Source: Amanita rubescens (Eukaryota; Basidiomycota; Agaricomycetes; Agaricales; Amanitaceae). From it: a stretch of 64,000 nt of DNA. Below, piece after piece: positions 12,858 through 54,200 of the stretch (position 1 is its first letter; the number at the start of each line of letters is the position of its first letter). The stretch spans positions 248,001 through 312,000 of the forward strand of contig WION01000001.1 of the NCBI GenBank assembly GCA_015039365.1. Direction: 5' to 3'. The translations under genes were made by a program, and so were the position numbers. The notes under the pieces were generated by a model. It was not told the origin of the DNA and ran no database searches. It saw nothing but the letters and a program-made list of their open reading frames with translations.

Positions 12858-13196
12858 TGTAACGTACCGATTCCGGCTACGTTGGAATCGACACTCAAAC
12901 CTCGCCGAAACCCTCGCTCAAGCTTCCGAGACTCGGAACCTCGGATCGGAGCTCCGAGACTCGGTATCGGATACGTTTCGGACCGTATTACGCACGTAGC
13001 ACACGAGGCATGTAGTTTATATACCCCATCGTAGTTAGTTTTATACAGTTTACTTTCCCCTCACTTCGCATCTAAGTTCCTGAGCCCCGAGAGTGCGACC
13101 GAAGTTGGGCGAGCACCTTTCGGTGCTGCCGAACTCGCTCGGCAAACACCGAGCCTCGGAGGTTGCACCCAACGCAACCTCCGTTTCGTTGTTTCA
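12858..13196 (+). repeat. Right LTR, 339 bp
   Basis: Identical by eye to 11042-11380, with no substitution noticed, which implies a recent insertion. It is followed directly by GCGG and then the second half of the Helitron gene. Confidence 0.95.
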
Positions 13197-13200
13197 GCGG
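13197..13200. repeat. Target site duplication, right copy (GCGG)
   Basis: Second copy of the 4-bp sequence at 11038-11041. Counting it once brings the two Helitron reading frames back into register. Confidence 0.75.
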
Positions 13201-29500: not shown

Positions 29501-31492
29501 TGCGTATTATACCATATCTTGGCCATTGTTTAAATCTTCACCCGCTAGGAAAATATCTTCCTCGATGCTAAGAACAACTGCCAAATTGTTGCCGACGTCG
29601 GCTTAGCCCAACATTCGAATGCCATTGTTACGCTATCCGCTGCGGCCTTTTTTTCCAATTACGCTGCCCCCGAACTGTTCGTCATGCAGTTCGAGAACAA
29701 TGAACGCCATGAAGATCATGAAGTTCCGCATGGAAGTAAGACGGTGCAAACGGACGTATATTCTTTTGGTTGCCTTTATTATGCAGTAAGTCCAATGTGT
29801 TCGTCTATATATAAAACATATTTAGCAATGACCTGGGCAGATATTCTTTGATACCATTCCTTTTGTGGATAGAAATAAACATCAAATCATGCGGCTTGTC
29901 ACGGCAGGAGAACGCCCAGAGCGATTGACAAGCCCGAGGATGGGAGACGGTTTATGGAACCTCATCCACCGATGCTGGAGCGCCAATCCTCTTGATCGTC
30001 CCTCAATGACGAACATAACCAACGAATTGCCAAAATTTACACCCCTTCTATCATTACTTGCGATCCTCAAAAAGGTATACCTTCCTAGGTGTTAATGTAT
30101 TGCTACTGATAGCTACTAGTCGGCGCCATTCGACGGCGCGACGGTTAACAAGGGTACTCTTCGTCTCATGTGCGAATTATTCGAGCCATGTGAAACTGAT
30201 GTTACTGTGTCCGGACTGAAGAAATCTGAAGACGTTGAGTTGATACTTGATTCTCTTCTCCATGTGTGTACAAGTTTGCATAGCTCGTTCCTTTATCCTT
30301 AATATTTTCTTTTCTCTAGCTACTTCGCAACGGTAGCCTGATGAACCTGGGCATCCGGGATGCTAACCGGAAAGCTAGGAGGCTGATGTTCGAAGTGATA
30401 TCCAAAACACATGCCGTACCAAAATCTCTATTTATCAATAACGTCACGACTTTCACACATCTTGGCCCGATCGGTGTGGGTGGCTTCGGTCGTGTTTTCA
30501 GAGGCGAACACGCAGGACAGCAGGTAGCAGTGAAAGTGGTGGACAAGAGCCATAACGATGTTCGTGGATTGCCAATTGCTTTCTCTCAGAAATACTAATC
30601 GATCTGGTAAGAATTCGCTCATCAAAGCCATCTGCCGGGAAGCCTTAACATGGCGATCGCTCTCTCATCGCTTTATTCTTCCCTTTCTGGGAATATACGA
30701 GGAAAAATTCCAACTATCCCTAGTGTCACCATTCATGATAAATGGAACATTAGCTAAGTGGCGAGAACAGTGTACACCAGAAATAGCTGAGATCCATAGG
30801 CTGGTAAGACGACACGAATTGTCAAAGCAATAAAACAAATTCACTAACATCTCTCAGATGCTAGAGGTAGCGGAAGGTTTTCAGCATCTTCACTCGGAAG
30901 GTGTCGTTCATGGTGATTTACACGGGGTGCGTACTTTAATATTGAACCTTCCCGTTGAGTTCATTCATTGCCAACAAGGGAAATGTCCTTCTCGATTCCG
31001 AATTGCACTGCAAAATCGCTGATTTTGGATTAACACGACATGCTGAAGCCGCTTTTTCACGATCTACCAGAACGTTTTTGGCCAATTTTGCAGCGCCTGA
31101 ATTATTTGGTTTGTGCACTAAGTGCAGTGATCCCGAGTGTGATGGTTGCCCTGAGAACCATGGTGAGCATCGTAGAGGAAAAACAAAGGAGACGGATGTG
31201 TATGCGTTCGGTTGCCTTTATTATGCTGTGGGTTTGAGGTACTCCCAATAACTCGTTGGAGTTTACTGAGTAGCTACCTGCGCAGATATTCTTTAATACT
31301 GCACCTTTTCTCGGGAGGAGTGACTTGCAGATTATGGGCCTTGTCACGAAAGGAGTGCATCCAGAGCGATTAAACAGTCCAAGAATCGACGACAATACGT
31401 GGAATCTTATCACGAGTTGTTGGATATGTAATCCTTCCGAACGCCTAACAATGGATGTAATCGTAAAGAAAGTGAAGTTGTTGGCTTCATAG
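26523..31492 (+). CDS. GTPase - helical region - TKL kinase - TKL kinase fusion (array gene A)
   Basis: ATG 26523 begins MKSLLGRSNSFPQPITDSPQ. Exons 26523-26659, 26710-26734 and 26789 onward give FRILIVGRSGVGKSSLINAI, with an intron inside the G1 loop. G3 is HDSEGYEPGD (26973) and G4 is VVYTKFD (27288-27299). A helical region follows: FARAQRVDTSGKIDASIK, then MGYVVYLTLILQAVFL. The exon ending LLRILRFE joins in phase to LSSNGLIVNQI, so no new start is needed. Kinase 1 (28.7-30.08 kb) has INIGGFGRVFKGEYKGKA, VALKLMDKG, HSEGIVHGDLRG, DVG in place of DFG, and NYAAPELF. It ends LLSLLAILKK and splices to kinase 2 (30.12-31.49 kb): GVGGFGRVFRGEHAGQQVAV, HGDLHG, DFGLTRH, AAPELF. Kinase 2 keeps all catalytic residues. 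An automated annotation might split this into two or three genes. Confidence 0.72.
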
Positions 31493-32152: not shown

Positions 32153-34206
32153 ATGCGTCATTCCACTTTCCCTGCCGTTCTCTGTCCAGTGGTTCAGATC
32201 GCAACAGCCGCCTCGCTGGTTCCAGGCTTGAGTCCTGCCGTAGGAGATCTCCTCGGCATCATCTTCAAGCTATGCGAAAGTGTCCCACAAAACAGGCACG
32301 TTCTACCCTTCTTTGCGCAGTATTACCTTTCTAACTCGTCTACAGGAACGCTGCTAAGCGACTGGCTGAGAGATGCGTGCAACTGTGCCAACCGTTGAAG
32401 CAGTATGAACAGATGGATATCCCCCAGCGGATGGTTCGATACCGGGATAATGTGTCCCAGTCAGTTGTCAAATCTTCGGATGATGGACTCTGCTGATAAT
32501 GTCTAGATGTCTTACACAGGTCAGGGACACAATGGAAAAATGGTCCCGGAAGAGCTGGTCCAATATGTTGGTGCATCAAGGCGAATTCGAGGCAGAATTC
32601 AACTATTGCGACGAATGCATATCCAATTGCTTGACGATGTTCTCTGTAAGCGTCGGTGGTTTAAAATGAGCGTATTTTGAACAATGTTTAGGTTGGTGCC
32701 CAAATGGAAGGGTTGGTATACCAGAACGAAGGCGAAAAATGGAAGAGAAATTTCCAGGACGAAGACGAAAAGTGGAAGAGAAATCTCAAAGAGAGTTGGG
32801 ACGCTGACCACGTGGACGTCATGAAACAGTTTTCGGCTGTAGACTTCAAGCAACGCGTCGTGGATAGTAAGGTTACAGAATGCCACGATGATATACGGGC
32901 CCTCCAAATGATGATGCAAAGAGTATGTTGGTTCCATAAGCGGGGGCATAGACTACATGACAATCGGGATTAGGGCTTAGCTGGACACAGAATCGTATCA
33001 GAAGAGGAGCAAAAGCGTATGGCGACGAATTTATACGATTTGCTCCAGTTATCGAATCAGCTTCCACCCGATTGTCAGCTGGATGGAATGGTCGAGTTGT
33101 CGCGTGACGTGCCCATCTCAAACGGCCACGCCGATATGTGCAAGGGGAGATATCTCTACAGCAAAGATGTCCGAATCAAGGTCATTCGCTCTGCCAATCC
33201 GAAGGATCCCGATACCATAAAAGTACGTCCCCTCGGTACCGGATACCTTTTCCGTAACTCATGTGCTTTTAGAGGATCAAGCGCGAAGTCGAGATATGGG
33301 CAAATTTACAAGAAATAGATCAAGGGATGCATGTTATGCCGTTTTATGGATTCTATACCCCAGATGGCCTTCGTCTGTAAGTGACTTTAACAATATTCAG
33401 GCACTGTCATTGATGTTATCATGCTAGTGCCCTAGTTAGCCCGTGGATGGAAAATGGTGATGCGCTGGCGTATGTCAAGAAGAACAAGTGTGTTGACTAC
33501 AAACAGCTGGTGCGTCCCTTTGTCTCATCTTCGCGTACAAATCTTGACGACGCTATTACAGATCGTTGGAATTGCTCAGGGGATAAAGGTCCTTCACTCT
33601 ATGGACCCGCCTATTATTCACGGAAACTTGAGAGCTGTTCGTGTCCTCTTTTCCTAACGATCTTTCCGAGTACTAAACCGTTCATAAGGAAAATGTACTT
33701 ATTGGAGAGGAAGGTCAACCGCTGATCACAGACTTTGCGCTTGCTAAGGCACGTTACGTCGATTCTACAGTCATATGTATCGCTAAATCTTCCTATGATA
33801 GCTCGAAGGGAACTTGATCACCCAAACCAGCGGCGTATCAGATAGCTGTCGATGGAGCGCACCAGAGATGTTTGAAGATCAAGCTACTGTGTCATCCAAG
33901 GGCGACATTTACAGCTTTGGGATGACGATTTTGCAGGTTGGTCCCGACTTGGTTTTATGGGTAAAGCTTGGGTGCTGATTGTTGTTTATGTAGTTGTTTA
34001 CGCAAGATAAACCGTATGCCAGTCGGAAAACTTTTCAGGTGTTTAGTAAAAAGGTAGCAGGTGCGCTTCCTGATCGTCCGCGAGATCCGGGTGTCATCAG
34101 GCGCGGGTTGGATGAAACGATGTGGAACTTTCTTTGTGCATGCTGGTCCAGGGAGCCGGAGGATCGACCTTCGATTGAACAGATTATAATGCAATTTTAT
34201 ATCTAG
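32153..34206 (+). CDS. MLKL-like four-helix domain plus pseudokinase (array gene B)
   Basis: Begins MRHSTFPAVLCPVVQIATAA. The N-terminal helical domain (LVPGLSPAVGDLLGIIFKLC, then AAKRLAERC, MEKWSRKSW and EFEAEFNYCDECI) has the pattern of the MLKL N-terminal four-helix bundle as found in Agaricomycete kinases. A charged brace-like segment follows (EKWKRN repeated twice, then LKESWDADH). The kinase-like part lacks a glycine loop. It keeps a Lys in VRIKVIRS and a Glu in KREVEIW, but has HGN (33619-33627) for HRD and DFA (33731-33739) for DFG, so it should be catalytically dead. SAPEMF and DIYSFGMTILQ are present. It ends at the stop at 34204. The first intron appears to use a GC donor. By analogy it would be an effector triggered by a partner kinase; that role is inference. 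Confidence 0.75.
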
Positions 34207-34491
34207 TAGGGTGCTTACTGAGGAATCAGTTGAACTGGTACCTTTGATATTCACATGTAAAGTTCAGTCAGAATTTGGAGTGGCGACCATGTGTGGATTT
34301 GAAGCCAGGACTTGGCAACATCATGCATCATGCATCATGTATGCGCATCTTTGACCTTGTGATCGCCACGCCCTAAATTTGAACTTGAGGGGCCGTCACG
34401 GGCGCAAGGCTGAACACGGTTACACCTTTGTTACTTGCGTGCCAGTGCGTTCAGGCTTACTTAAAGCTCGTCAAGCAAGCACCACGCCATC

Positions 34492-35792
34492 ATGGTGAAC
34501 ATTTATCTGCCCACCGTCCGCGGACAAGTTCTAGCACTCTCCATCCCCTTCAGTGACATCGAGAGGCTCTCCGTCCGCCCTGTCAAATGGCTTCGATTTG
34601 TTACATTCGCCATTTGTGGAGTTCGTGGACATCTCTCCGAGTCTTCGATGCCCAATGGCACCCCTGTCGACTATGACAGTATCTCCCTTGATAATATTGC
34701 CGAAGTTTACCATTATATTCATGAGGGTAATATCTGTCGCTTATCGCTAATATTTTGGTTTACGCCCCTATAGGGGATTATCATCTCATCGACCACAAAG
34801 CAATGAACGATCAAACCACCTCCTCTGAGCAAACGACACGCTCTTCAAGTTTCCGCCGTGATGTCATGGCGCGCGATGGCCCTGTGTGCGTCTTCGCAGG
34901 GTCCCATGCCGATGATTGCGATGCAGCACGCCTACTCGCCAAAAGCAAGGGCGATGAGGTATGTATTCGTCGTCATTGTTCCGTGTCACCACCTTGCTAA
35001 ACGCCCTTCTAGTTCATTGCGGTTGTTCTCCAAGATCGTCTCAATTCATACGACTCCGCTCTAGAACCTAATAATCTAGGCATTAACTCTGTTGAGAACG
35101 GGATGTTTTTGGCCAAGAATCTGCATTCGTCGTTCGCGCACGGGCTTTCATAAAGGTACGTAAAGTAGACATAAGTTCCGAAAATTACTGAATCTGGTGA
35201 TCTCTAGACGCCCAACTTTGCTTTGGACCCCGCCGACATCCCTAGGGTTGAGGCAGGTCCAATGCCGTCCAGTCGCATCACATTGCATACTTTGGCACCA
35301 GACACTAGCTTCCATCCGATTCTGCAAGGTGACGCGCGCATCACCGGTACGGGCACATCACTGCCATCTACTGTCATCCTTGACTACATGTATGGTGTTG
35401 CTGCCTATCGACGCTGGGGCAGTGGACAGGATATCGAGAAAGTGATGGATCAACATTTTTCCAAGCACTATAAATCTATACCTATGCCACCAGCCTCTCC
35501 GTACTTAAGTGGCAGCGATAGTTTTTCAGAACCTGATGATCCCAACGACGGCAATAGACGAAGGAGAAATCATAGCGCGAAAATGTCAGATGAAATGCTT
35601 CGTGCGATGGACAAGGTCCTTGCGCTCTCCATGTTGCTCAAGGGGACCACGCCTGAAATGATGGCCGCAGAAAGACAGAGGCGAGAGGAGGCGGAAGAGT
35701 TGCGTGCGAAGGAGGCTAGTCGAGTGAAAGTGCAGCAGTGGATGCAAAGTTCTCTGTGCGTTCTCTCTTACCTCCGGGCTATTTCCCACTAG
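34492..35792 (+). pseudogene. Fungal HNH-nuclease-domain gene with a frameshift and altered HNH site
   Basis: Exons 34492-34726, 34774-34958, 35013-35155 and 35208-35792. The core reads FRRDVMARDGPVCVFAGSHA, then DDCDAARLLAKSKGDEFIAV, LEPNNLGINSVENGMFLAKN and LHSSF. After a shift it continues FIKTPNFALDPADIPRV. This is the Agaricomycete HNH family in which CDAAH carries the first His; here it is Arg. Exon 3 meets TAA (LS stop) unless one base is gained near 35140-35150, because the conserved FIKTPNFAL is in the next frame. C-terminus: long, with an acidic/Ser patch and a predicted coiled coil rich in Arg/Glu (AAERQRREEAEEL). Probably a recent pseudogene, or a sequencing error in an otherwise typical gene. 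Confidence 0.75.
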
Positions 35793-35976
35793 AAGCTGAT
35801 CTTAGGTCAAACGGAGATAACGTACACCAGTCAAAACGCAGCTAGTGGGCTATTTCCACCAGAAGCTGATCTCGGGTCAAACATATTCAAGTCAAACGCA
35901 GCTAGTGGGCTATTTCCACCTGAAGCTGATCTTAGGTCAAACGGAAATAACGCTAGTACGCAAAAAACGCAGCTAT
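35776..35976. repeat. Three-unit tandem repeat of 60-71 bp
   Basis: Units start at 35776, 35847 and 35907 with GGGCTATTTCC. Each contains GAAGCTGATCT and GGTCAAAC and ends in ACGCAGCTA. The first unit overlaps the last codons and stop of the HNH gene. Confidence 0.85.
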
Positions 35977-36007
35977 TAAGCATCACGAAAGTCTCCCACC
36001 CGAGAAG

Positions 36008-36322
36008 TTACCTATATACGTCCTCGTCATCGCTCTCTTCTTTACGCTTCTTGACGTTACCGCCACGCATGGCTGCCATCTGACCGGCCAACGAATCTTC
36101 ATCTGGGTCCGAGATCTCATCTTCCATCTCGTCGACGGCAGATACAGGTCCTTCTTCTATTTTCATCTTATGAATGTCGTTAAATAAAAAGTCAAGACTT
36201 AAGTAAGGACTCGGGGGGCTTACGGTGATATCTCGCGTCACTCCTCCGCGTGTGGCTGATGATGTACACTTTCCATGTGATTGTTGCTCGAATCCACTAG
36301 AACGTTTGCGCCTAGTTGGCAC
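36008..36322 (-). CDS. Unrecognised acidic C-terminal exon (possible gene fragment)
   Basis: On the minus strand, TRGGVTRDIT ends at a GTAAGC donor. After an intron acceptor CATAAG the frame reads MKIEEGPVSAVDEMEDEISD, then DEDSLAGQMAAMRGGNVKKR and an acidic end DDEDVYR. Splice signals and the acidic/basic composition look like a real nuclear-protein C-terminus. The upstream part runs into kinase debris on the other strand, so only a 3' fragment may remain. No family recognised. Confidence 0.35.
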   Translation of the reverse strand: MPTRRKRSSGFEQQSHGKCTSSATRGGVTRDITVSPPSPYLSLDFLFNDIHKMKIEEGPVSAVDEMEDEISDPDEDSLAGQMAAMRGGNVKKRKEESDDEDVYR

Positions 36323-36620
36323 GTGGTTTGTCGGAATACGACGAATGCGACGAGGGTCATATCAGTTATTACGCAGTGCATTTCCAGTGTTACTTCACTT
36401 GTTGGCTCATTCAGAGATGGCGTGTGCGGGCACTCTCAGATGCTATTCCTCTCTATGGGAAGAGTGACTTCCAAATTGTTGGACTCTGCAGAAGTGGAGT
36501 ATGCCTAGACCATTGGAAAGTCTAACAATGGAAGGCAATACGTGGTTGAATCGCATTGAAAATCTGATCCTTCTGAGCGTCCGACAATACGACAAATAGT
36601 AGAGGCATTAACGTGAGCTG
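36300..36620 (+). pseudogene. Decayed kinase C-lobe remnant
   Basis: Broken frames read ISYYAV, AIPLYGKSDFQIVGL and CLDHWKV, with stops between. They match the end of array kinases (LYYA, then TAPFLGRSDLQIMGLVTKG). It marks a lost or displaced member of the array. Confidence 0.5.
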
Positions 36621-37944
36621 CATCGCTTCGCCAACCTGGCTCGCTATGGGATTTACTTGATTCTTCGCCCACTTCCAATTATATTCTACGCCAGCTTCCC
36701 TTAACACACTTGCACTGTTAGCCATGTACTTATATACGATGGAAATATCAATATCTTACCCGGATCAAGCGGGATATTCTTTCTTCATAAGGAAGTGGCA
36801 GGCAGCGATAGCATCCGGCATACGTCATGGTGCAGAGAAACGCCGCTACTGCGCCGTAGTGGACGGCGTTCTCAGGCGCTCTTCCTTTTTCCTCCACACC
36901 TCAAGTTCGAATCCCTCAGGGCCCCGTCGCCTCCCTTCTCTTCTCACTCACCGCTTCAGCCTCTCCGCATGGTAATCCAGATGAAGTATTTTTGAATGGA
37001 TATGCGCAGACAGGCTGGTTTCCCCTGATGACATCGCCACGTCACCTGGACCTGCTAGGGCCCACGACCCTCTTCCTGTACTTGTTGCCTAGATTCCGGA
37101 TGAGTTGCTAACCCCGTAACTCCGCGCGGATGAGCTGAAGACCAGAGGATTGGACTCCTTGCCGACTTTGGAGTATAACATGAAGGTAAGTCTTGCGTCT
37201 ACCAGACGGCGCCTCTATCGGCTCCTTGAGGCTCAAGTCGGCTGAGCCCTCTGGACGTTACACCGGGATTTTGACCTAGTCCCAAACGATTGGCCTGCTA
37301 AGCAACGATATCAGTCGTGTGGTTAATCCACGCTTTGTCTCGATCACTAACTGGAAGGGCATCATTCTGAACCCGCTACTTATGTAGCGAGAATCACCTT
37401 ATCTTATCGCAACTACACACACCGCGAATCATGATGATGGAACATTATTGCTCAGTACTTGTCAACGATTTCAGATGTGGGAAGCTGGACGCCCTTAGTG
37501 AGTGTTCGCCGCATCTGACGTGTGACCCACTCTCCCGCAGCTGGTTCAAATGAACAATTCCTTGTAGATAGCAGGCAGACTTGACTGAAGCACAGCTATG
37601 ATTGGTATCATCGTCGTGTCGTTTCGCTTCAAGATCCAGGAAAGTCTTGAACCAAATTCTTTTGTCAGTGTGACCCGAAGGTGAATAAGGGAGTGCTTAC
37701 TGGACGGAACTAAATTTGGACGATGGCTGAGTATATGGACTGACGGACAGAGCGGCGTTCTGAGACTAAAAATAGCATAGACCACGCGATGCAAACCTGG
37801 GGCCAGGGCTGCCTTGCCAAATCAGGTAGTTGAACTGGGTACTTCTCCTACTAAAACTCACGGCGCCAACCTTAGTTTATCACATTTCATGATTCATCAT
37901 CAATGCAACTTCTTGAGCGCTAAACATCTTTCTCACCAACCAAC
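36621..37944. other. Spacer before array gene C, nothing recognised
   Basis: No domain or spliced gene was recognised on either strand. Short frames at 36724-36995 and 37546-37794 have no support. Confidence 0.35.
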
Positions 37945-40900
37945 ATGCGATCTTCCTCAGGCAGGCCCGTCGAGTCGCACCACATGTGCAGCGACCCACC
38001 GCATACCCCCGACGCAGAATTTGTGCGTACTTCGGATCTAAATGCTAAGGAATACCCAAGGTGATGCAAATTGAGCGATTGATAATTCAGCTAAATATTC
38101 ATGTACTGTCACAGGTTCCGGATCCTTATCGTTGGTCGGGTAAGGCTTGTTAGCGTTTCCACTACCTGCTCGGTTTACGGGACTTTCTTCAACAGACCGG
38201 CACAGGGAGATCGTCACTTATTCATGCCGCATTCAATACTCCTCTGGCGGTACGCGTTGTGTTATGGTTATTTTTCAACCATTCAACGACATCTAGAGCG
38301 CCGGTATCGCAGATGTCAACGAAGAGATCAAGTCAACAAACAACAAGGACCTAATCCTTCATGATTCTCAGGGTTACGAGCCGGGGAACGTCGAGAAATT
38401 CCAAATCTTAGAGGAATTTATCACAGAAAGATGTCAGAAGAAGGATATTGCCGAGAAGCTTCATGCTATCTGGTGTGTTCATCGACCAAAGAGAAAAAAC
38501 CAACTGATATTGCCTCTCAGGTTGTGCATTGATGTGCCTTATGCTGGTGGTCGGATATTTGAAACGGGCGACGAAAGGATTTTCGAACTGAATCGAAACG
38601 AAGGTAACTACGCCCAAATTACCCTTATTCTAAGCTGATCATATTATCAGTGCCGATCATCGTCGTATTTACAAAGTTTGACCTATTTTTAACGGCATTG
38701 CACAAGCGTGGAGAGGCCAAGGATCCGATTAGTTTGGAGTTGGCCGAGAAAATTTTCAAGAAGAAACACGGGCCAGTATTCGACAAGTTAACCAAAAACA
38801 TTGGAGGACAAATACCATACGCTCTTGTGTCAAGTACGCTTGTACCCGGTGGCTCCTAATTCTGTACTATTAACATTAGCATGCAGTCCGGGTGCCTGAA
38901 ACTTTGAAACGACTGGTCAAAATCACGATGAAAAGTATACGTGCCAAGACGCCGACTTTATTCAGTAGGATCGTGCGCATTAGAGGCGCTTTATTCAATA
39001 GGTCTATTAAACGAGTTCATCTGAGAGGAGAGAATCAATATCTAGCAGAATTTGCTTTTGCAAGGGCACAACGTGTTGATATGGATGCCAGGATTGCCGC
39101 ATCGATCAAGTAAGCTCCCATATCCGGAAATGAATAGACTTAACATTTGGGTTCTTATTACAGAGTAGCGAAAAAGGGTGAGTTGTATCGATAATCTGTT
39201 GTCATCTATGTTCTGTGTACTTACATCAATTCAGGACATTGGAGAACAATGGTAGCGGGCATACGCCTTCTCAACGTTAGCCTTCAAGAATATCTATATA
39301 CGATACATAAGGGCATCATCAGGTCCTGGACTTCTAATGAGGTGTGCACAAGAATGTATCCTAAATGTGCCGTTGAATTTATTCTATGACCATAGTTTCT
39401 TATTACGGATTCAGCCTGTCATCGGATGATGGTTCTCGTGGGCGATCTCAATCATCAGAATATCAGCGCGACGTGGGTGGATAGGAAACGTTGACGAATA
39501 GCCAAGCTAATGGTAGTCGCCACAGGCAGAGTAAGACAACTATGGCGTTGGTGGGGGCATCGCTAGCAAAGGTATGGAGGAAAGGTGTTTACCAACAACG
39601 GTGAGTAGCGTCATTCATCAGTTACACCAGCAGAAGTGATATATTTCTCAACAGACCTGAGCATATGCGCTGTCTCATGGGCTACGTAGTGGATCTTACA
39701 CTTATCCAACAAGCCATATTTCTCGCTTCACTCCAGCACCCTCTCGAAGAAAAGGACCTGGAAGACCGCGTAAATGAAATCATATATGAATTTTGTTGCT
39801 CGAGAAAGAAGGATGATATACACAATGAAATTCGGGAATTCGTCGCTACTCAGGACTGGCACTCTAAAACCAACGTGGTAAACAAGATCGAGTCGTTGAT
39901 AAAGGCAAATGAGGTGTGGCGTTTGTGTTTCGCTGTCATCTTATTGTTAAACGAGTGTCTCCCCCGCTACGCTGAAGATTGACATCCGATTTGACCGAAA
40001 GAGGGATCAATTTACATCATTGCTTATAATCCTGAGGTTCGAGGTGTGGGATTTCAAAGCAACGCGATATTATTGCTCATGATTACCAGTTGATTGCGAA
40101 CGGTCTGACAATAAATAAAACTATTCTTGGCCTTGTTCGCGAACTGTTGAATTTACCAGACTGCGACACTAGTATTGCTTCCAGCGTGAAGAATATTTCG
40201 GACGTCGAGCTGTTACTTGATTTCTTCCTCTATGTAAGTACACCTTCGTGCTTGACATCATTGCTTACTCTTTCTAGTTACTACGCAATGATAGCCTGTC
40301 GAACGCTGGTATTCAAAATGCCAACCGAAAAACAAGAAATCTAATGTTCAAGCTGTTGTGCAAGGCAGATGTTAGGCCCAGAACTTTGGTGATTACCGAC
40401 ATTAGTTATACGGGTCCCGGTAGTACTGGGACCGGAGACCCTAGACAAGTTTTCGAGGGTGAACATCAAGGACAGCAGATCACGCTGACTGCGCTGCGCA
40501 AAACTCGTCTTGAAGATGTAAGTGTATTTTCAGATTCGCTCCTCAAGACGTTGATTTGTTGGTCAGGCTATATTTAAAAAAAGATTTCATAAGCAGGCTC
40601 TAGAATGGAAATCGCTTGACCATACTTTTGTCCTCCCCCTGCTGGGAATATTTGAGCAGGATCCTTCACGCCTATTTTTTGTGTCACCGTCGATGATAAA
40701 CGGAACATTGACTCAATGGAGGAAATCAAAAAACCCTTGTGTAGCTGTGGTGCAGACGCGGGTAATGCATCAACACACGTATCAATATAACATCGCTGAC
40801 ATCCGCTAGATACTGGAGGTAGCCAAAGGGGTTCAGTACATCCACGCGGAAGGGATTGTTCATGGTGACTTGTGTGGGGTAAGCAATAAACCATTTCATC

Positions 40901-42850
40901 ACTTAACTCTCATCTTTATAAACCAGGAAAACATCCTGCTTGACTCTGACTTCCACTGTCGAATCGCCAATTTTGGATTAGCGCAAGCTACCGACGTCAA
41001 CTTTCCACGACAATCAACCACGACACTTGATTCAAGCGATCCGAGCCCCGAACAATTTGGCATAGTTGATGAACGACCAAGAGATGTGCAAGCGTTCGGT
41101 TGCCTTTACTATGAAGTAAGTGCCCTGAAATCTGCAGCGCGCTTGACAGTGAATGTTCTAGGTATTTTTCGATGTTATGCCTTCCCCAGTGCAAAACGAA
41201 CCCCAAAGTGGGCGACTTGGCACAGGCGAGGATCGTCTTAACCAATCGGACACTCAGACAATGGACGACAACATTTTGGAACTTATCAATAATTGTCGGA
41301 AGAGCAATCCTTCAGAGCGACCGACAATGGAGCACGTCGTGACGATGCATATGAGATTCACTCCTCTCCCGGCTTTGCTTGCGACGCTCCGCGAGGTATG
41401 TGTTTCGGAGTCACCAACTTGATATCACTAACAAGTGCTAGTTAACGGTGCTCGGGCGCTCGATCGTCAATGAGATTACCCTCCGTCTTATTCACGAAAT
41501 CCTGAATCTACCTGAACTATTTACCAAGGTTACCGAACTAAAAACTTTTGAGCCAGACGTAGGGTTGTTGCTTGACTTTGTTCTCCGCGTTTGTATAATC
41601 TCTGTCCAGTGCACTTGCTCTATTGATCGTTTATTCCATCTAGCTAATCCGCAATGGCAACCTGACAAACTTGGGCATCCAGGATGCAAATCGGATAGCC
41701 AGAAAGTTGTTGTTCAAGCTAACATCTATGATAAATACCATACCAAAGTCTTTGTTTATTACGGACGTCAAGATCCATCATGAAACTATTGGTGCAGGAG
41801 GCTTTGGTCGTGTTTTCAGAGGCGAATACGAAGGATTGCAGGCAGCACTGAAAGTGGTGGACAGAGGTCGTTACGACGTGGGTGCATTGCTATTTCTCTC
41901 CGTACAATAGATCTTGATTCGTTTTGATAAGGATTCGCTCAAAAAAGACTTCTGTCGGGAAGCCATAGCATGGCGATCGCTTACACACCGTTTTATACTC
42001 CCTCTTTGGGGAATATTCGAAGAGAAATCGCAGTTGTACCTCGTATCACCACTCATGACAAATGGGACTTTGAATCATTGGCAACAGAAGCAGAAGAGAG
42101 ATGTAACTGAGATACGCAGGCTGGTAATACTCCTGTCATTATCAAAGCGGTAGAACAAATTTGCTGATGTTGGTTAGATGCTAGAGGTAGCTGAGGGCGT
42201 TCGGCATCTCCATTCGGGAGGAATTGTCCATGGTGATCTGCATGGAGTAAGTACCTTGCTACTGTACACTCTCGTCGATTCATCCCATTATCTATCAGCG
42301 GAATATTCTCCTCGATCCACAATTCCACTGTAAAATCACTGATTTTGGATCAACCCAACATCACGAGGTCACCGTTACACGTTCCACTGCAGCTCTTTCT
42401 ATAGATTTCTCAGCGCCTGAACTATTTGGCGCATGCACTTTGTGTGGCGTGTCTGATAACAAGGACTGTCATGGCGATCAAGATGAAAGGACGATACGCA
42501 AAACTCAGGAAACTGACGTTTACGCATTTGGTTGCCTTTATTATGCCGTCAGTTTCTGATTTGTTTTTTCTTACCTTATTTAGCACATTGAACAATGATC
42601 TGCAGACATTCTTTGATGCTCATTTGTTTCCTGGGAAAAGTGAACTATCAAATTATGCGACTCGTTATAGAAGGGAGGACGCCCTAAACGATTGGAAAAG
42701 CCAAAAATGGCAGACAACACATGGGAACTCATCCAAAGTTGTTGGCGACCTATTCCTTCTAAGCGTCCGAAGATGGAAGAAATAGTGACGGCATTGACTT
42801 TGTTTGCCGAGCTTCACCACGAAGCAAAGAGTGCGTCAACTATATACACC
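37945..42850 (+). CDS. GTPase-like - pseudokinase - kinase fusion (array gene C)
   Basis: Starts MRSSSGRPVESHHMCSDPPH. FRILIVGR joins TGTGRSSLIHAAF, so the G1 lysine is Arg (codon 38208-38210). G3 is HDSQGYEPGN and G4 is VVFTKFD. The helical region includes FARAQRVDMDARIAASIK and MGYVVDLTLIQQAIFLASL. Kinase 1 (40.09-41.40 kb) has a degenerate loop (TGTGDPRQVFEGEH), Thr for the beta-3 Lys (ITLTALRKT), HGDLCG, NFG for DFG and SPEQF for APE. It is a pseudokinase. Kinase 2 (41.43-42.85 kb) has GAGGFGRVFRGEYEG, AALKVVDRG, HGDLHG, ITDFGSTQHH and SAPELF, and looks active. Phases GEL/LLATLRE to LTVLGRSIVNEI support one transcript. The coding end is unclear because kinase 2 runs, through a GT-AG intron after HHEAK, into the decayed pseudokinase that follows. 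Confidence 0.68.
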
Positions 42851-42879
42851 AAGAATTCGATTTATAACTAGTATTAGAC

Positions 42880-44103
42880 CTCAGCGGGGCTCGTAATCGT
42901 GCCAGAAGAGAAACGCCAGCGTATGTCGAACGGATCTATATGATTTGTTGCCCTAGTCGTCTCCCGCCCAAATACCAGCTAGATGGGAAAGTCAAGTGGC
43001 CGGGCGAAGTGCCTACGAGGCGCAGGAAGAAGTGTCGACTCGAATATGTACAAGGGAAGACTCCGAGGGCCAAGATGTGAAAATTAAGATCATCTCCTTG
43101 GTCAATCCGAATGATGAGAACGGAGTAATAGTACGTTCCTTGGCACTTTGGACCCGAAACTCTACAGTAACATGCATACCTTCAGAGGATTAAACGTGAA
43201 GTTGAGCTGTTAGCAAAGATAAATGAAATGGATCAGGGAAAGCATATTATACCATTTTGTGGTTATTACTCCCCCGACGGCCTTCGTCTGTAAGTGTGCT
43301 CAGCAACATCATCCATTGTGCTTCTTGCCGATGTCATATCAGTGCCCTGGTTTTGCCATGGATGGAAAACGGAGATGCGTTGGCGTATGTCAAGAAGCAC
43401 AAGTATATTGACTATAAAAGCCTGGTTTGTTTCCTTTTATTTTCGTGGTTGTCAATCGATTGTGTGGTCGTAGATCGTTGGAATTGCTCAAGGAATGAAA
43501 GTCCTCCACTCTATGGATCCACCTATAATACATGGAAATTTCAGAGCAGTTCGTGTCTTATTGCTCAAGGACCCGAAGGAGAGCGCTAATCCTATCGTAA
43601 GGAAAAGGTATTTATCGGAGATGAGGGTCAACCACTAATCTCGGACTTTGCGCTTGCCAAGGTACGTAACGTCAAGCTACGCTCGTTTTTATCTAAACCT
43701 CTTCATCATAGTTTGATGGGAACTTGATTACCCAAGTCATTCACGTGTCGGACAACTGTCGATGGAGTGCACCAGAGATGTTCGAAGAACAAGCTACTGT
43801 GTCGGCCAAGTGCGATATCTATAGCTTTGGTATGACTATTCTGCAGGTTGGCTCGACTCCTTTGGACCCGAGACAAGGATACTGAATTTAGCCCAGTTGT
43901 TTACGCATGAGAAACCTTACACCAACAAGAAAACTGCTCAGGTCTTTTCCGAGAAGCAGACGGGTGAGCTTCCCGACCGTCCGCAAGACGAGCGTGTCGT
44001 CAGCCGCGGATTGGATGACAGAATATGGAAGCTTCTCTGCCAATGCTGGTCCAAGAATCCAACAGACAGACCTTCGATTGAGGAGCTTTTAGCAGAGTTT
44101 TGA
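42880..44103 (+). pseudogene. Decayed pseudokinase module (third copy, no helical bundle)
   Basis: From GLVIVPEEKRQRMSNGSI the copy matches the middle of genes B and E. It then shifts frame at least twice before DVKIKIISLVNPNDENG. Later exons are clean: GKHIIPFCGYYSPDGLRL, PWMENGDALAYVKKHK, PPIIHGNFRA, ISDFALAK, SAPEMFEEQATVS and IYSFGMTILQ, ending LLAEF and a stop. HGN and DFA are the same as in B and E. The N-terminal helical domain is missing, and the sequence joins directly to kinase 2 of gene C. It looks like a recombination junction followed by decay. Confidence 0.65.
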
Positions 44104-45810
44104 CATTTATTGACATGGCTAGTCAGGATACCAGAGTTCTACTTGTACGATTGAGAATGCGTAATCAACGTGGATGTGTTCTATAGTTCTGTTAAGACAA
44201 CCGAGTGCAGCCGGGAGCTAATACCTTCTCGGTCGGAAAAGGGAGTGACGATTCCTATATGCGTCCGTTCTCGTCGATCAGTTTCTACCGAAGACCTCAT
44301 GAAGGAAGATGCCAAACTTCGTAATCGTTCAGCCCTCGCATTCACGGTTCCCTCCCAAACAGACGGAGATTTGGGTCAAACAACCCAACTGACCCTACTT
44401 TGGCAAACCAGGTAAGCCCTTCGGAGAGTTACGGCGCTCGAGCGTCCAACAAGAACTGCAACGAGAGGTCGAGCGAGGCATGAATTGCTAGCAGTGGATG
44501 CGCTCGCCGGAAAATCAGGGAGTTTTACGTGGACATTAAAACGAGCCAGAGGTCAGGAGCAGGTAACATGTAGGTGACGAATGTCACGGAGGAAGATCAG
44601 GAGAGCGGAGTCTAGAATGGAGGAGAGGGACTTCAGAATTCACGAGGGTGGAATTTTTCGCTGATGAGAGGCGAGGTGAGAGGACGATAAACGGCGCTTG
44701 GCGAACGCACACGCTCCTTTTCCGACAAAACAGTCCTGTTGATCCCCCAGTCGTATAGTTAACGCACTGTTTGCATTATCATAAGATCACCGTTTCATGT
44801 ATACAAAGTCTTTTCACACGCGAGGTGGTCTGGAGGATCATCAGTGATACATCCTTTTGGAACCTAGGTACTCACAGTGAATAGCGTGAGCAGTGGCGGA
44901 GAAAGTAGAAGCCTGAGGCGCGGACGTGGTATGGCGGATGAGTCATAGAATCATAGAACAGAAATTGAACGTTGTTTACTACTATTATCGGCACACCGAA
45001 GTAATGAAAATGACGAGGGGACGACTTTCCAAAGGCGGGTAGCATCTTGGTCAATGACGAGAAGCTCTAGGGTGTTATGCTGTTACTACATTAGTATTAC
45101 AGTAATAGGGTTAGACTCAACACAATGACGCAATCGTCCGAGTCGAATGATGCCTGACAACCGACTCTAGGGTAAGGGTTAAGGCTTGCAGCGGCATCCA
45201 GGCAACGACAATTGACCTGAACATGTCCCGATGGTGACTCGCCGCCCGCTCAGGACCTCGAAAGCTTCTGCTACTTAAAGATTTGCACATTTGTCCACAA
45301 GTCTCTCGATCAGGCTAAGAGTCATAGCGTTCCTGTAGACAAACAGACATGTGAGGATAAATACGGGGAAGTTCACAATGAGGAATGATACGAACTTGTT
45401 TTGAGGACACTACTGTCACATAAGATGATGACCCGGGTGCAGGGGGAAGGCGGGACCCAGGCCTGGGATCAGTGATGGCGGTTGTAGCGACCTGGATCGA
45501 CCATAGAAGGCCTGACACGTGGCGGGTTTAGAATCATAACACAAAACGTGAACGTTGTTTATTATTGGCACAGAAACAGGCAACGAAGATGCATATGACG
45601 AGCGTCGACTTTCAAAAGGGATTTACGATAGTGGAGCCGAAATAGCAACCGAGCGCATTGCCGGATTAGGAAATGATGAACATGTATACTCATACCAATC
45701 GAAGCTGGGCCGGCGCCTATCGATCACAAGCTAAACCAGCACCACGCAGCGCAAACGTGGGGTATTCTCAGGATCATATTCGCATTTTGCCTTAGGTTTC
45801 TTGGTCGGCT
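44104..45810. other. Spacer with a diverged direct repeat
   Basis: No gene is recognised. 44,944-45,035 and 45,530-45,622 are similar direct copies (GAACGTTGTTTA and CGACTTTCCAAAG/CGACTTTCAAAAG in both). The right end carries the gene E promoter. Confidence 0.45.
44944..45622. repeat. Diverged direct repeat pair, about 90 bp each, 585 bp apart
   Basis: Both copies have AGAATCATA, A-C-A-x-AA, GAACGTTGTTTA(C/T)TA, GGCACA, TGACGAG and CGACTTTC(C/A)AAAG in the same order and spacing. Confidence 0.5.
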
Positions 45811-48800
45811 ATGCCATTAGGCTCTTGTTTCTCGGCTATTTTCAGATGGGGGCCGACGCGCAAGGTCAAGTTTGCTTCACCCGTCATGTCAAGCGTAGGG
45901 CCTGCCTCAGCTCTTCTGGCTGCCATCGTCGACCTATCTGAGAAGGTACCTCAAAATAGGTCTGTACAATCTCGCACAGTGCAAATTTACTCGAGTCTCA
46001 CACTCTTTGCAGGAATGCTGCTCGCCGGCTGTCTGATAGGTGTCAATACCTGCACAATACCCTAAATCAATATGAAAAGAAACACCTTTCTGCTGATCAT
46101 ACGGGTCGATTTCAGGATACGGTGTCCAAGTTGGTCATTGGTTCTTCAATGATGAATTAACTGACCTACTGCTGCGTGTAGATGTCTTAACCAGGTCAAG
46201 GATGCGATGCAAAAATGGTCAGAAAAAAGCTGGATTGAGATGTTGGTGCATCGAGGCGAATTTCAGGCCGAATTCAATGATTGTGATACTGCGATCGCCA
46301 ATTGTCTTACGATCTTCTATGTCAGTGCGCTCAGATTGTTCGTGACATAACGGGAATTTATCTCCAACAATTTATCAGACTATTTCACGGATGGTTGCGT
46401 CGGCAATCTGGAAAGAAAACGAAAAATGGACAAGGGATCTAAAAGAGAGCCTGGATGCCGACCACAAGGCTATTATGGAACAGCTCGCCGCTGCTGATTT
46501 CATACAACGAGTGACAGAGAGCAAGGTCTTGGAGGGCCAGAATGACATAAAGGGGATTTTGGTGATGATGCAAAAGGTACGTGAACTGTACACGTGGAGG
46601 CTTGGATTGCTTAATATACGCGATTAGGGCCTAGCGGAACACAAGGTCGTGTCTGATGAGGGACGCAAGCGTATAGCCAAGAATCTATATAGGTTGCTTC
46701 AGTTGTCGAATCTGGTCCCACCCGAATGTCAGCTGGACTCCGGAGAGATTGAGTGGTCTGGAGAAGTTCCCATTGATGGCGGCAACAAAAACGTTGATAT
46801 GTACAAGGGTCTATATCTCCAAAGCGAGGACGTGAGGATCAAGGTCATCCGCTCTGTCAATATGAAGGACGAGAATACGGTCAAGGTATACCTTCCTAAC
46901 GCTGAGACCTACCTCGCTTGTGACTCAAAATGCTTTCAGAGGATAAGACGCGAGGTCGAACTGTGGTCAGAGATTTACGCAGTGGACAAGGGAAAACACG
47001 TTATACCATTCCATGGTTTTTACAGCCCCGATGGCATTCGTCTGTGAGCGTTCTTGGGAATGTTATACAACGCCCCTTATGCTAATGTTTCTGCCAGTGC
47101 GTTGGTTAGCCCATGGGTTGATAACGGAAATGCTTTAGCATATGTCATGAAAAACGACAACGTTCTCGATTATAAAAAGCTGGTACATTGCCTTGCCTAC
47201 TTTTCACGCCGAGTCTAATTGCATCAGTAGATTGTCGGCATTGCAGCAGGGATCAAAGTCCTGCACTCTGTGAAACCTCCCATTATCCACGGAAATTTGA
47301 GAGCAGTCCGTGTCGTTGTTCATCAGTGACATAATAAATCATTGATCTCTTCGCCAGGAAAAGGTACTTATCAGCGATCAGGGCCAACCACTAATCACGG
47401 ACTTTGCGCTTGCCAAGGCATGTTTTCGCGATCTGTTTTCATACGTATTGCTAATCTTATTGTTGAAGATTGAAGGGAATCTGATCACCCAAACCACTGG
47501 TGAATCCGAAAGTTGTAGGTGGTGTGCACCAGAGATGCTTGAAGAAAAGGCCATTGTGTCAACCAAGGGTGATGTCTACAGCTTTGGCATGACAATTCTC
47601 CAGGTTAGGCTCAGTTCCTTCTACTTTTTGTCTAAGATGCTCAACTCTTCTCAGTTGCATACACATGAGATGCCATACGTTAATATCAACAAAGCCTTTC
47701 ACGTGTATTCTAAGAAGCGGGAGGGTGACGGGCTACCCGATCGCCCGCAGGATGAGCGTGTCGTCAAGCGTGGGTTGGATGAAGGAATGTGGGGGCTTCT
47801 TTGCCTCTGCTGGTCCAGGGACGCGGAGCACAGACCTTCAATTAATGAGTTGGAGATGAAACTGTTGAAACCGGCTGAGCAGTTGCCTCATGAATCTTTA
47901 ACCGGGAAAGGGCTGGTCGTGGAGGATGATGCAAAACTGTTGAAATCCGCGGAACAGCCGCTTCAGGAACCGATCACAGTTTTGGTAGGGAACACGCTGG
48001 GAGTTGAGGACAATTTCGGCGGTGAGAATCACAGAAATGGCGCTGATGAACTGACGGCGAAGCTTTCGGAAGGCCACGTTACTATACATGGATCCATCAA
48101 GTCGTCGTTTGCAGCAAATAGCGAGATAGATACAAGCAAGTCATCGAATAAGGTTGGAGTTCATATCTTAATGTCAAGTCAATCGCTGATCGTATATCTC
48201 CCGCACTGCGTTAGATGGAGACGATCAATGATATCCAACTTAACCAAAAGAAACTTCTGACGTTTACTTGCATCTCATTATTACTTGCAACCCTAAGCGA
48301 GGTGTGCACTGGCACATCTGAGGCGCTAACACCCCCCACTGATATGGGCAATGACTAGTTAAAGGCGCTCGGTAAATCTCCAGTTACTGAGGTCACCCTA
48401 CATCATGCACGCGAACTATTGGATCTACCAGATTTTTCTGCTATTCAAATTCCATCCGAAACATGGAGTAGTTCAAATGTCAAGCTATTACTTGATTTCA
48501 TCCTTTATGTACGCTGTTTCATTTGAATTTTTGTCTGTCTTGACCTTCCGCCATGTAGTTGTTCCATGAAGATAGGTTAATGAATTTCGGTATTCAAGAC
48601 GCAACTCAAAGGGCCAGACAGCTGATGCTCAAGCTGACATTGACGGAAGTCATGCCTGAGTCCTTATTTATTACTGGCATTAAGAAGGATGCTAAGCTGT
48701 TCGCTGTGGGGGGCTTTGGACGTGTTTTTAGAGGCGATTACAAGGGGAAGCAAGTAGCGCTCAAGATGGTGGACAAAGGCCGTAAAGATGTTACCCCATA

Positions 48801-49726
48801 ATCATTCTTTTTCTTGCCAAGTGCTGATTAGTTTGGTAAGGGCTCACTCAGACAAGACTTCTGTCGCGAAGCATTAGTGTGGAGATCACTCTCCCACCGT
48901 TTTATCCTCCCTCTACTAGGGATATTTGAAGATGAATCAGAGTTATACCTCGTGTCACCGTTTATGACAAACGAAACATTAAGACAATGGAGAAACAAGC
49001 AAACTCCCACAACAGCTGATCTACATAAGATGGTAAGGTTACCGTAACAGTGGTTATCAGAACTGTCAAACGATATCGATAATACTCTTTAGATGCTAGA
49101 GGTGGCTGAGGGTGTTCAGTACATTCATTCCGAAGGGATCGTGCACGGCGACTTACATGGAGTAAGAGTTTTGACATCCGATGCTCCCCAATCAGTTCAT
49201 CTCATCCTCGACCAGGGAAATGTCCTTCTTGACTCCAATCTTAGCTGCAAAATCACTGATTTTGGTTCAAGTCGACATTTTGAAACAGTCATTTCGCGAT
49301 CCACAAGAGCGCTGGTTATAAATTTTGCTGCACCTGAGCTATTGGGTTTGTGCATCAAGTGTGGCCAGTCCCAGTGCAGCAGATGCTATGAAGGTGACGA
49401 GAAGGAGCCTACGGGCAAAACGATGGAAACCGACGTTTACGCATTCGGCTGTCTTTATTATGAGGTGCGTTTCAGGTTCTCCCTCGCTTATGCAGCACAT
49501 TGAGCGACTGGTGACACAGATATTCTTTAATACCGTTCCCTTTCATAAGTCTAACTACGTTCAAGTCATACAACTTGTCGCAAGGGGAGAACGCGCAAGT
49601 CAGTTACAAAGCCCAAAAATGGGAGATAACACGTGGAATCTCATTCAGAGCTGTTGGAAATCCGTTCCTTCTAAACGTCCGAAGATGAAAGAAATAGTAG
49701 AGGTGCTGCCAACTCTACTTGCATAG
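45811..49726 (+). CDS. MLKL-like helical domain - pseudokinase - active-type TKL kinase fusion (array gene E)
   Basis: Starts MPLGSCFSAIFRWGPTRKVK. The helical bundle reads PASALLAAIVDLSEKVPQNR, then NAARRLSDRC, AMQKWSEKSW and GEFQAEFNDCDTAIANCL. The brace-like segment is EKWTRDLKESLDADH. The pseudokinase lacks a glycine loop and has HGN (47288-47296) and DFA (47400-47408), with CAPEML and DVYSFGMTILQ. Then comes a linker with a twofold KLLK(P/S)AEQ repeat. An intron 48153-48214 removes the apparent stop at 48258-48260 and joins to TFTCISLLLATLSE; another (48302-48358) joins in phase to LKALGKSPVTEV. The final kinase reads AVGGFGRVFRGDYKGKQVAL, HGDLHG, ITDFGSSRH and AAPELL, and has all catalytic residues. 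It ends VLPTLLA. If splicing is as read, effector, pseudokinase and kinase are in one protein. Otherwise it is two adjacent genes. Confidence 0.65.
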
Positions 49727-51254: not shown

Positions 51255-54200
51255 ATGGATGCCCCTCAGGCATCCATGTCCTCTCCCTCTGCCATCGAGA
51301 GAACCCTTATACCTACGACGGATGAGATTGCGGAGGAATGTCCAAGGTCACGTCAATCAAGCCACAGATGATATCCAGCTGAATATAAATACAGGTCTCG
51401 GATCCTTATCGTTGGACGTGTAAGTCTTGTTGCCGTTCCGCCTGCGTGTTTAATTCATGGACCTCTACCCTTTCGTAGTCAGGTGTCGGGAAGTCGTCGC
51501 TTATCAAAGCTATATTCAAGGTTGATCTGGCGGTATACTGGAATCTGTCACGATTGCTCTTCAGCAGCTCAATGGCACTTACTAGGATGGCCGACATTTT
51601 GGGGCTGGCTCGGCCAATATTAGCGAAGGAATTACGTCGCCTCACAACAAACACCTCATCATACACGACTCAGAATGTTATGAGCCAGGAGACGAACAAA
51701 AATTCCGTATTTTGGAGGAATTTATCGCGGAGCGAAGTCTGAAGGAATCCATTGCCGAGAGACTCCATGCAATTTGGTGGGCTCATGATAATGCGAATCA
51801 ATCAATCAATTCATATTATTCGACAGGTTGTGCATTGCTGCGCCTTGCGTTGGTGACCCAATATTCCAAACATGGGATGAGAGGATTTTTAGTTCAAATC
51901 AACGCAAAGGCAACTCTCCGAGATTCCTATACACACTAGCTTTGGCTGATCGTGATAACAGTACCGATAATCGTCGTGTACACAAAATTTGACATTTTCA
52001 TACAGAACAACTTGCTCGAAGGAGGGGACAGCACAACGAGGTCTAATTGTAGTTTGGATTCTGCCGAGAGGCGTTTCAGTGAGAAATACGACGAATTGTT
52101 CCGGGAATCCACGAGGAACATTGGGGGTGAGATACCATACACTGTTGTGACAAGTAGGTTCGCAATTTAGGTTGCTTCGCCCGCTTTGATGTGTGCATGT
52201 AGGTTCAATGCAACGAACCTTGCAGCGACTGGTCGAATTGACGATGAAAAACATTGCCAAGTCTCCGAGCATCTCGAGTGGTCTTGCGCTCGGTATGAAG
52301 CATTACTTTAATGGAAATCCTGATTAATCAGTTGACAGGGCAAGTGGAAGATTCCTTGGATGCAACACAAATTACCTTTGCTACGGCGCAGCGTATTGAT
52401 ACGTCAGGTAAGATTGATGCATCAATAAAGTAAGTTTCTATCAGGAAGTGGGATAGGACTGGCGTCTTACTATTTTTATAGAGTCGGGAAAAAGAGTAAA
52501 TTGAGCCCGTAGTTTGTTTTCAACCCCCTCACTTTGATTTCCAGAGTATTGGAGAGCGATAGCATCTGGGATACACTTTCTCAATTTTAGCCTTAAAAAG
52601 TGCTTAGATGTGATACACAAAGACCTTGTTTCTATATGGAATATCCGGGACATGGACGAGGTGCGCGCAAAGGAGTGTCTTGAATATGCTATTCATCACG
52701 ACTTGATAGTTCCTTCTCGGTGATGCATTCTCTCGCCAGATGCTGGTTTTCGCGGGTGATCTCATTCATCAGGACCAGGGGAATGACAGCGCACTGTAAG
52801 TGAATATAGCACGTTGGTAGGCATTTACACAATTGACGACTGTTGCAAGGCAAGGCAAGGCAACGATGGCAGCGGCAGCAGGGGGACCAACTTCGAATCT
52901 GTGGGCCAGCGGTATTTTCAAGAGATGGTGAGCATATACCGGCTCTTTATCACAGCACATGTTAACATCTGAACAGGCCCGAACACGTCCGTTGTATGAT
53001 GGGCTATGTAGTGGACCTCACGCTTATCCTACAAGCCGTGTTCCTAGTTTCTCTTCAAGATTATTCCAAAGGCAAAGTTACACCGGATCTCATAAACGAA
53101 GTCATCTACGAGTTTCATTTGTCGGACAAGAAAAAACGCATTCATGACGCAATACGGGATTTTCCGAAGCCCTCGCTTTCCAAGGGTGATGTAGTGGATA
53201 AAATCGAGTCATTAATAAAGGAAAACGAGGTGTGAAATTTCTATTTCCGCCTGAGCTCGTGACTAATCGTGTCTTCGACAATAAAACATTACAGATGACG
53301 AAGAATGACACAAAATTTGACCAAAATAGATCTACACTTCCATCATTGCTTAGAATACTTAAGTTCGAGGTGGGGACTGCTGAAGTATCGCCGCGCCGTC
53401 ACTGACAACTACTAGCAAAGCGCTAATGGCCTGATAGTAAATCAGATGATCCTTGATCTTACGTGCAAACTGTTCAATTCACCGGACTACGACACGATTG
53501 TCGCTGAAATGAGGGATCCTTTTGATGGCGAGTTATTGATTGATTTCAACCTTCTTGTACGTATCACCTTTATCCCTTGTTTTACCTCCTTACCTATTCC
53601 ATAGTTACTCCAAACCAACAGCCTATTAGATTCTGGCAATGAAGATGGCAACCGTAAAGCCAGGACGTTGATGCTCAATCTGCTAAAGAAGGCAAACGTT
53701 ATACCCAAATCTCTTTTTATCGCGGACATCAAGATTGATATAGAACAAGGCATGATCAATATCGGAGGTTTTGGGCGTGTATTCCTAGGCAAATACAAAG
53801 GAGAGTTAGTCGCACTAAAGTTACTGGGAAAAGGCCTTAAAGACGTTAGTATTGCGCTTTTCCCTCCTCACCATACTGATTCTTTGTAAGGGCAAGTTCA
53901 GTCAAGAACTCGTTCTGGAAGTCCTAGCGCGGCGATCGCTCTCACACCCTTTTGTTCTCCCCTTACTCGGAATATTCATAGATAGGTCCCTGCCATATTT
54001 TGTGTCGCCGCACATGAAAATTTCATTAACTGAATGGCGAAAGACACATACACCAACCGTACCTGAGATAAATAGGCTGGTGAGACTTCAGCGATTGCCA
54101 CGAGAGTTTGATGGTTCTATCATTGATCAGGTACAGGAGGTGGCCGCGGGCGTTCGGTACTTTCACGAAGAAGGAATTGTGCATGGAGATTTGCGCGGAG

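Follow-up and report, generated by a model that had tools for sequence, protein, structure and literature searches.

Genes for MLKL-like pseudokinases interleaved with, and partly fused to, GTPase-kinase genes in Amanita rubescens

The window analysed here, a stretch of 64,000 nucleotides (nt) from the mushroom Amanita rubescens (C1:248001-312000, in an assembly of 75.7 Mb and 786 contigs), carries a cluster in which genes for proteins with an MLKL-like helical domain and a pseudokinase, among them genes B and E, lie between genes for a P-loop GTPase followed by kinases. Plain coordinates refer to the window and those prefixed C1: to its contig; the gene labels A-F, D1-D3, G5, G6 and K1/K2 are those of a preliminary description of this DNA or our own. 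Gene models were made with our own spliced protein-to-DNA aligner, allowing GT/GC-AG introns. A search with the B protein, together with reading of the DNA, placed parts of the cluster on six contigs (C1, C22, C129, C74, C6 and C334); the additional ones are haplotypes or segmental copies, which cannot be distinguished, and hence we speak of contigs only. The two MLKL-like genes of the window are as follows.

32153-34207, + strand: gene B, MLKL_N four-helix domain, brace and pseudokinase (HGN/DFA); 514 amino acids, 11 exons, two GC donors
32153-32922, + strand: N-terminal helical half of B
32983-34203, + strand: pseudokinase half of B
45811-48260, + strand: gene E, MLKL_N, brace, pseudokinase (HGN/DFA) and C-terminal tail; ATG at 45811

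The spliced aligner returned the same ten introns for B, but with B itself as the query. The frame of E runs from the ATG at 45811 to a stop at 48260, or to 49726 if it is spliced on to the following kinase gene, D3. Introns at 32296, 33749 and 47418, in B and E, apparently have GC donors in place of GT. Both proteins score above the cut-off of the Pfam family MLKL_N (PF22215, 27.0 bits), B with 39.4 bits and E with 30.1 bits from the start at 45811 or 28.9 bits from a later start. A genome-wide, exon-by-exon search for PF22215 gave no match, and gave none in 14 controls either, which we read as a limit of searching exon by exon, and B itself was therefore used as the query. In the kinase fold that follows, B and E both keep the beta3 Lys (K) and the alphaC Glu (E) and, just as the preliminary description had read them, carry HGN instead of HRD and DFA instead of DFG. 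The activation loop of B contains LITQTSGVSDS.

That the N-terminal helices are patterned like the MLKL bundle had been proposed from the letters alone, and comparison by profiles and structure prediction bears this out. We built a profile from 12 N-termini (B, E, P0018 of Paxillus and nine proteins from Amanita or metagenomes) and compared it with 177,635 PDB sequences; the sole match up to an E-value of 10 was MLKL, chain 4btf_A, residues 8-155 (E 0.013), which we take to be the mouse protein; hhalign of the profile to this stretch gave a probability of 60% and an E-value of 8.7e-5 over 99 columns. MLKL_N itself matched 10 of the 12 N-termini at E up to 0.1. Other Pfam families were rejected as descriptions of these N-termini, SesA and nine more matching one of the 12 each, weakly.

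The AlphaFold2 target was neither B nor E but a cluster paralogue, P0003 (C1:372666-374716), modelled as a whole chain from a 17-sequence alignment, with a mean predicted local distance difference test score (pLDDT) of 83.4 and a predicted template modelling score of 0.80. Our gene models at C1:372666 and C1:375162 match P0003 and P0004 end to end, with the same first residues. The P0003 model contains a four-helix bundle (residues 26-41, 46-68, 76-97 and 108-133) and, between the third and fourth helices, a predicted short helix at 101-106, as in the BaMLKL type; Goodbye-like domains are described as lacking a short perpendicular helix at this place (PMC9815663; here and below, published sources are cited for the parts of them that were available). 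Predicted helices at 137-166, 171-178, 184-198 and 206-222 then lead into the kinase fold, in agreement with the brace-like segment that had been postulated between bundle and kinase. The leading segment is poor in acidic residues, with at most one D or E among the first 30 residues in all 19 proteins scanned, and the best 19-residue hydropathy within the first 60 residues was at least 1.6 in 14 of the 19, a count made without a background control (B 1.78, E 1.52). An MLKL-type architecture of B and E is thus supported by Pfam, by the PDB profile match and by the predicted structure of a paralogue.

Loss of catalytic residues is conserved in the pseudokinases of the cluster. When each locus on C1 is counted once, HGN is found in 10 of 10 and DFA in 9 of 10, and across 26 gene models, which include the same gene on several contigs, each motif is present in 25. 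Among 19 Amanita-clade rows of the alignment (P0001-P0017, P0178 and P0181, three of them metagenome proteins) the position of the HRD Asp is occupied by N in 12, E in four and Q, G and D in one each, the DFG Gly is kept in two, and no row keeps both. In nine rows from more distant mushrooms (P0018, P0019, P0173-P0177, P0179 and P0180) the motifs are HGD/DFG seven times, HGN/DFG once, in a Mycena, and HGY/DFG once; four still more distant rows (P0020-P0023) have HGD/DFG in three and HGD/GFR in one. In a tree built without the motif columns, all Amanita rows fall into a single clade (Shimodaira-Hasegawa-like approximate likelihood ratio test, SH-aLRT, 96), and the genes of the cluster, with HGN, make up a subclade of it (SH-aLRT 99); the tree comes from a quick search without bootstrap and has long outgroup branches and several forks left open. 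Immediately outside the HGN subclade stand two HGD/DFA sequences, the A. rubescens copy on contig C760 and P0005 of A. phalloides. The loss of catalysis in Amanita was therefore probably stepwise. In B this loss is not decay: the gene is 97.7-98.8% identical across three contigs, with dN of 0.005-0.011 and dS of 0.086-0.148 (nonsynonymous and synonymous substitutions per site) and a dN/dS of 0.03-0.09, and is under strong purifying selection.

The remaining genes of the window that belong to the cluster, all on the same strand, are these.

26892-31468, + strand: gene A (GTPase-kinase-kinase), immediately before B
37945-44104, + strand: middle gene, GTPase, kinase 1 (NFG), kinase 2 (HGD/DFG) and pseudokinase F; three frame breaks in the window copy
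42886-44100, + strand: pseudokinase F (HGN/DFA), without a four-helix domain of its own
48215-49726, + strand: D3, helical segment and a kinase with the complete motif set (K, E, HGD, N, DFG); starts at an ATG of its own, or is spliced to E
51592-56159, + strand: GTPase-kinase-kinase gene
57308-62051, + strand: GTPase-kinase-kinase gene, first kinase HGN/DFS and without K and E
63151-64000, + strand: start of another GTPase-kinase-kinase gene, running past the window end

The second kinases of the pairs and D3 carry the full set K, E, HGD, N and DFG in five of five cases in the window, one of them with two frame breaks, and to this extent the neighbouring kinases have complete catalytic sites, as had been claimed for them in general. 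Frame-break counts for A, G5 and G6 were left unused because their queries were chimeric and had artificial joints. The helical segment that precedes the kinase of D3 had no Pfam match. In the GTPase-K1-K2 genes (28906-62051) a complete K2 follows an altered or degenerate K1, an order reminiscent of JAK kinases. Between B and the middle gene there is possibly a split gene (34494-35792), whose exon 35223-35789 had no Pfam match.

The cluster is real and extends far beyond the stretch first described (32153-49726). Over the 107 kb that we read (C1:274,892 to 382,000) there are ten GTPase domains, each followed by a helical segment and a kinase, mostly twice, on both strands, and interleaved with them are eight loci with an MLKL_N half and a pseudokinase, two with a pseudokinase only and one N-terminal fragment; GTPase matches continue to about C1:420 kb. 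In A. brunnescens, a GTPase-kinase-kinase gene (AX14_000496) and an MLKL-like gene (AX14_000497) have consecutive locus tags and are listed on contigs of equal length, and the product of the latter, P0001, clusters with B and P0002 in the tree, which suggests that the A-B gene pair may predate the split of the two species. No NACHT domain was found on C1, and neither NACHT nor NB-ARC inside the cluster, among the matches listed by an exon-by-exon search in which the best candidates were scored.

Two NB-ARC matches, at C1:235334 and C1:245093 (C1:235334-245398), precede the first gene of the cluster by some 30-40 kb. Others are found roughly 10 kb away from the MLKL-like copies on C246, C75 and C608, for which no GTPase neighbour was listed; this proximity suggests that the MLKL-like proteins may be effectors of more than one switch. 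The MLKL-like match on C726 has a D3-like kinase match about 2 kb away. The window also holds Helitron-type genes at 8307-11183 and 13163-16867, with Helitron_like_N and DUF6570, and a PIF1-like helicase.

Some members of the two gene kinds are joined in one frame. The middle gene is unbroken in C22 (1504 amino acids) and C129 (1502 amino acids), with 31 introns, no breaks and no stops, and is 90-94% identical between contigs; the public annotation P0078 covers its first part. A second design, in which the bundle too is included, lies about 39 kb past the window.

C1:351344-358182, - strand: GTPase-K1-K2-bundle-pseudokinase chain

Here the end of K2 passes into bundle helix 1 inside a single exon at C1:353.3 kb, and the same 114-residue kinase-bundle stretch is found, identical, in C6 and C334, that is, in three of three contigs read. 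With a query starting with P0062 the chain has no stops and one break, which falls at the artificial joint of the query, and direct translation shows no break at the K2-bundle joint; two other chimeric queries gave two breaks and three stops, or one break and three stops. K1 of this chain keeps K, E, HGD and DFG in our reading of the alignment. The public annotation divides the gene into P0062 and P0002. In another public model, P0178, a pseudokinase continues into the helical-kinase segment that follows, but our reading of the DNA there shows five frame breaks. A third possible design, E with D3, would be a single frame of about 1000 residues across a 62-nt intron (48153-48214); in C1 and C22 this frame is open. 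The same two gene kinds are united in two fusion designs and in an undecided third. These fusions suggest that the kinases and the MLKL-like pseudokinases act together, and they support a shared pathway better than any other evidence presented here.

Divergence between contigs is uneven along the cluster. E is 71-74% identical in amino acids between contigs (dS 0.61-0.66 for C1 versus C129) and D3 85%, while B is 98% identical; the E/D3 comparison is of window positions 45501-49500 with C129:50000-53800, and nucleotide identity to C129 is back at 91-100% over 51.5 to 62.5 kb. Gene A shows 72-75% identity between contigs, an unsure figure, as the compared stretches differ in their number of kinase domains. 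The pseudokinase of E shares 93% identity with that of the paralogue at C1:319154 (dN 0.03), to which the N-terminal half of E is not closely similar (dN 0.28), so that E looks like a chimera and part of its divergence is due to exchange. The high diversity fits a recognition locus, and ectopic exchange accounts for part of it.

Taken together, we lean towards B, E and their paralogues being MLKL-like executioners that are switched by the adjoining or fused GTPase-kinases. The four-helix bundle with its hydrophobic, acid-poor leading segment would be the executioner part, and the pseudokinase, non-catalytic and keeping the beta3 Lys and alphaC Glu, would restrain it through the brace helices. 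The proteins with a P-loop GTPase and two kinases, at least one of which has a complete motif set in the window genes, would be the upstream switch: GTP-dependent assembly would carry the complete kinase onto the pseudokinase, and phosphorylation of the pseudokinase activation loop would release the bundle for membrane attack. The outcome would probably be cell death induced by self/non-self encounter or by pathogens, with a putative role in immunity or allorecognition.

It is by architecture that the locus resembles the MLKL switch, and its function is read from that resemblance. Animal MLKL likewise combines a four-helix bundle and a brace with a pseudokinase that retains the beta3 Lys and alphaC Glu (described for vertebrates in PMC7305131), whereas in A. 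rubescens the motifs are HGN/DFA and the genes lie in a cluster, some of them fused with GTPase-kinases. Plant MLKLs, including wheat Pm13, have MLKL_NTD, brace and kinase in the same order, but the kinase of Pm13 is complete and the available part of its description mentions no GTPase-kinase cluster (PMC10951266). In basidiomycetes, MLKL_NTD domains constitute an extensive superfamily of effectors and occur on NLRs (PMC9815663); the fungal HeLo, HELL and BaMLKL domains are reported either on NLRs or as switched by them through amyloid motifs, whereas the A. rubescens partner is a GTPase-kinase. With the RIPK3-MLKL necrosome the locus shares kinases with complete motifs beside an MLKL-like pseudokinase, in A. 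rubescens even within a single chain, but here a GTPase domain heads the kinase chain. A review already mentions fungal HELL-kinase/pseudokinase proteins, and a review of 2025 calls for a broader study of fungal HeLo/four-helix-bundle proteins to settle the conservation of necroptosis; PMC10197012 was a further background source. Among the matches listed in a search of open-licence titles and abstracts, with subscription papers and preprints outside its scope, we found no Amanita MLKL-pseudokinase cluster and no GTPase-kinase-MLKL fusion.

A number of findings weigh against the executioner-and-switch reading. On the side of the fold, the PDB profile match to MLKL is weak when taken alone, P0003 and P0004 score at the Pfam cut-off for MLKL_N (27.1 and 27.0 bits), MLKL_N does not match the distant relatives P0018 and P0019 at E 0.01, the matches listed by a structure search (VIA-align) with the complete P0003 model are to kinase domains only, and residues 1-23 of that model, where an additional N-terminal helix before helix 1 would lie, have a pLDDT below 50. 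On the side of the kinases, the first kinases of the pairs are complete in none of four cases in the window (two have DVG, two lack both beta3 Lys and alphaC Glu), so that the earlier claim of complete sites does not extend to them, and K2 of the bundle-fused chain, in our reading, keeps HGD but carries GFG instead of DFG and a Gln at the position of the alphaC Glu. The bundle of that chain also has no free hydrophobic N-terminus. The spliced models rest on our own alignment to genomic DNA, the window copy of the middle gene has its three frame breaks, and the E-D3 frame has one break in C129, one in C6 and three plus a stop in C74; with these breaks, and an ATG of its own in D3, we leave the E-D3 joint undecided. 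Finally, the MLKL-like loci on C760, C385, C412, C246, C75 and C270, and likewise those on C608, C484, C193, C473 and C726, have no GTPase match among the matches listed, which are lower bounds, and the 10 kb around the C760 copy contain neither a GTPase nor a kinase partner. Because of such copies we reject an obligate GTPase-kinase/MLKL module. Of the necroptosis-like module first proposed, the architecture, the pseudokinase state and the clustering are supported, and the fusions lend it further support; the separate copies and the altered or degenerate kinases speak against a module of the obligate kind.

These observations can be read in other ways. The genes could belong to a lineage-specific expansion of tyrosine-kinase-like (TKL) signalling proteins for symbiosis or development, with the helical domain as a dimerisation scaffold and the pseudokinase as an allosteric partner, without membrane attack. 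TKL kinases are reported to be expanded in the mushroom Laccaria (PMC2838846), CTR1, TNNI3K and RIPK4 are among the solved kinases whose sequences are closest to B, and in the fused form the start of the bundle is buried within a longer polypeptide; but MLKL as the only PDB match of the N-terminal profile and the acid-poor, hydrophobic N-terminus in the 19 proteins scanned speak against this reading, and we regard this alternative as unlikely, if deserving of attention. Clearly less probable still, in our view, is that the HGN/DFA domains keep residual or re-routed catalysis and that B and E act as kinases. Such a role, like that of wheat Pm13, for which all key kinase residues are reported (PMC10951266), would account for the retention of the beta3 Lys, alphaC Glu and DFG Asp in B and E and is in line with HGD/DFG in seven of the nine more distant mushroom relatives. 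Yet of the 19 Amanita-clade rows, 18 have N, E, Q or G in place of the HRD Asp, 17 lack the DFG Gly and none retains both residues, a pattern which argues that constraint on catalysis was lost.

To a similarly low degree we credit a fast-turning family with no coherent pathway, in which duplication, ectopic exchange and fusion produce random neighbours and many copies are decaying. This would explain the mosaic identity between contigs, the differing affinity of the two halves of E and the frame breaks, both in the middle gene of the window and in C1:338006-341237. It does not sit well with the 22 of 26 gene models that are free of any frame break or stop, with the low dN/dS of B, with a neighbour order apparently common to A. 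brunnescens, or with the union of the same gene kinds in two fusion designs and an undecided third.

Returning to MLKL-like executioners under GTPase-kinase control, a bolder form of that proposal is that the locus encodes single-chain necrosomes, namely that one A. rubescens polypeptide (C1:351344-358182) combines a P-loop GTPase, two kinases, a four-helix executioner and a pseudokinase lock and that, with partial versions nearby (GTPase-kinase-kinase-pseudokinase and possibly bundle-pseudokinase-kinase), it is part of a diversifying recognition and cell-death locus. This we put forward only tentatively and think it rather doubtful as a whole; our estimate, low from the outset, was lowered slightly further by the degenerate K2 of the bundle-fused chain.

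Necroptosis-like death in fungi is known mainly through HeLo and HELL domains that are switched by NLRs and amyloid motifs. A. rubescens would add a fungal MLKL architecture locked by a pseudokinase, with candidate activating kinases adjoining it or in the same chain, and a kinase-to-pseudokinase switch would thereby become directly testable beyond animals and plants. At the same time, the mushroom relatives that retain catalytic motifs may provide a stepwise record of a kinase turning into a pseudokinase.

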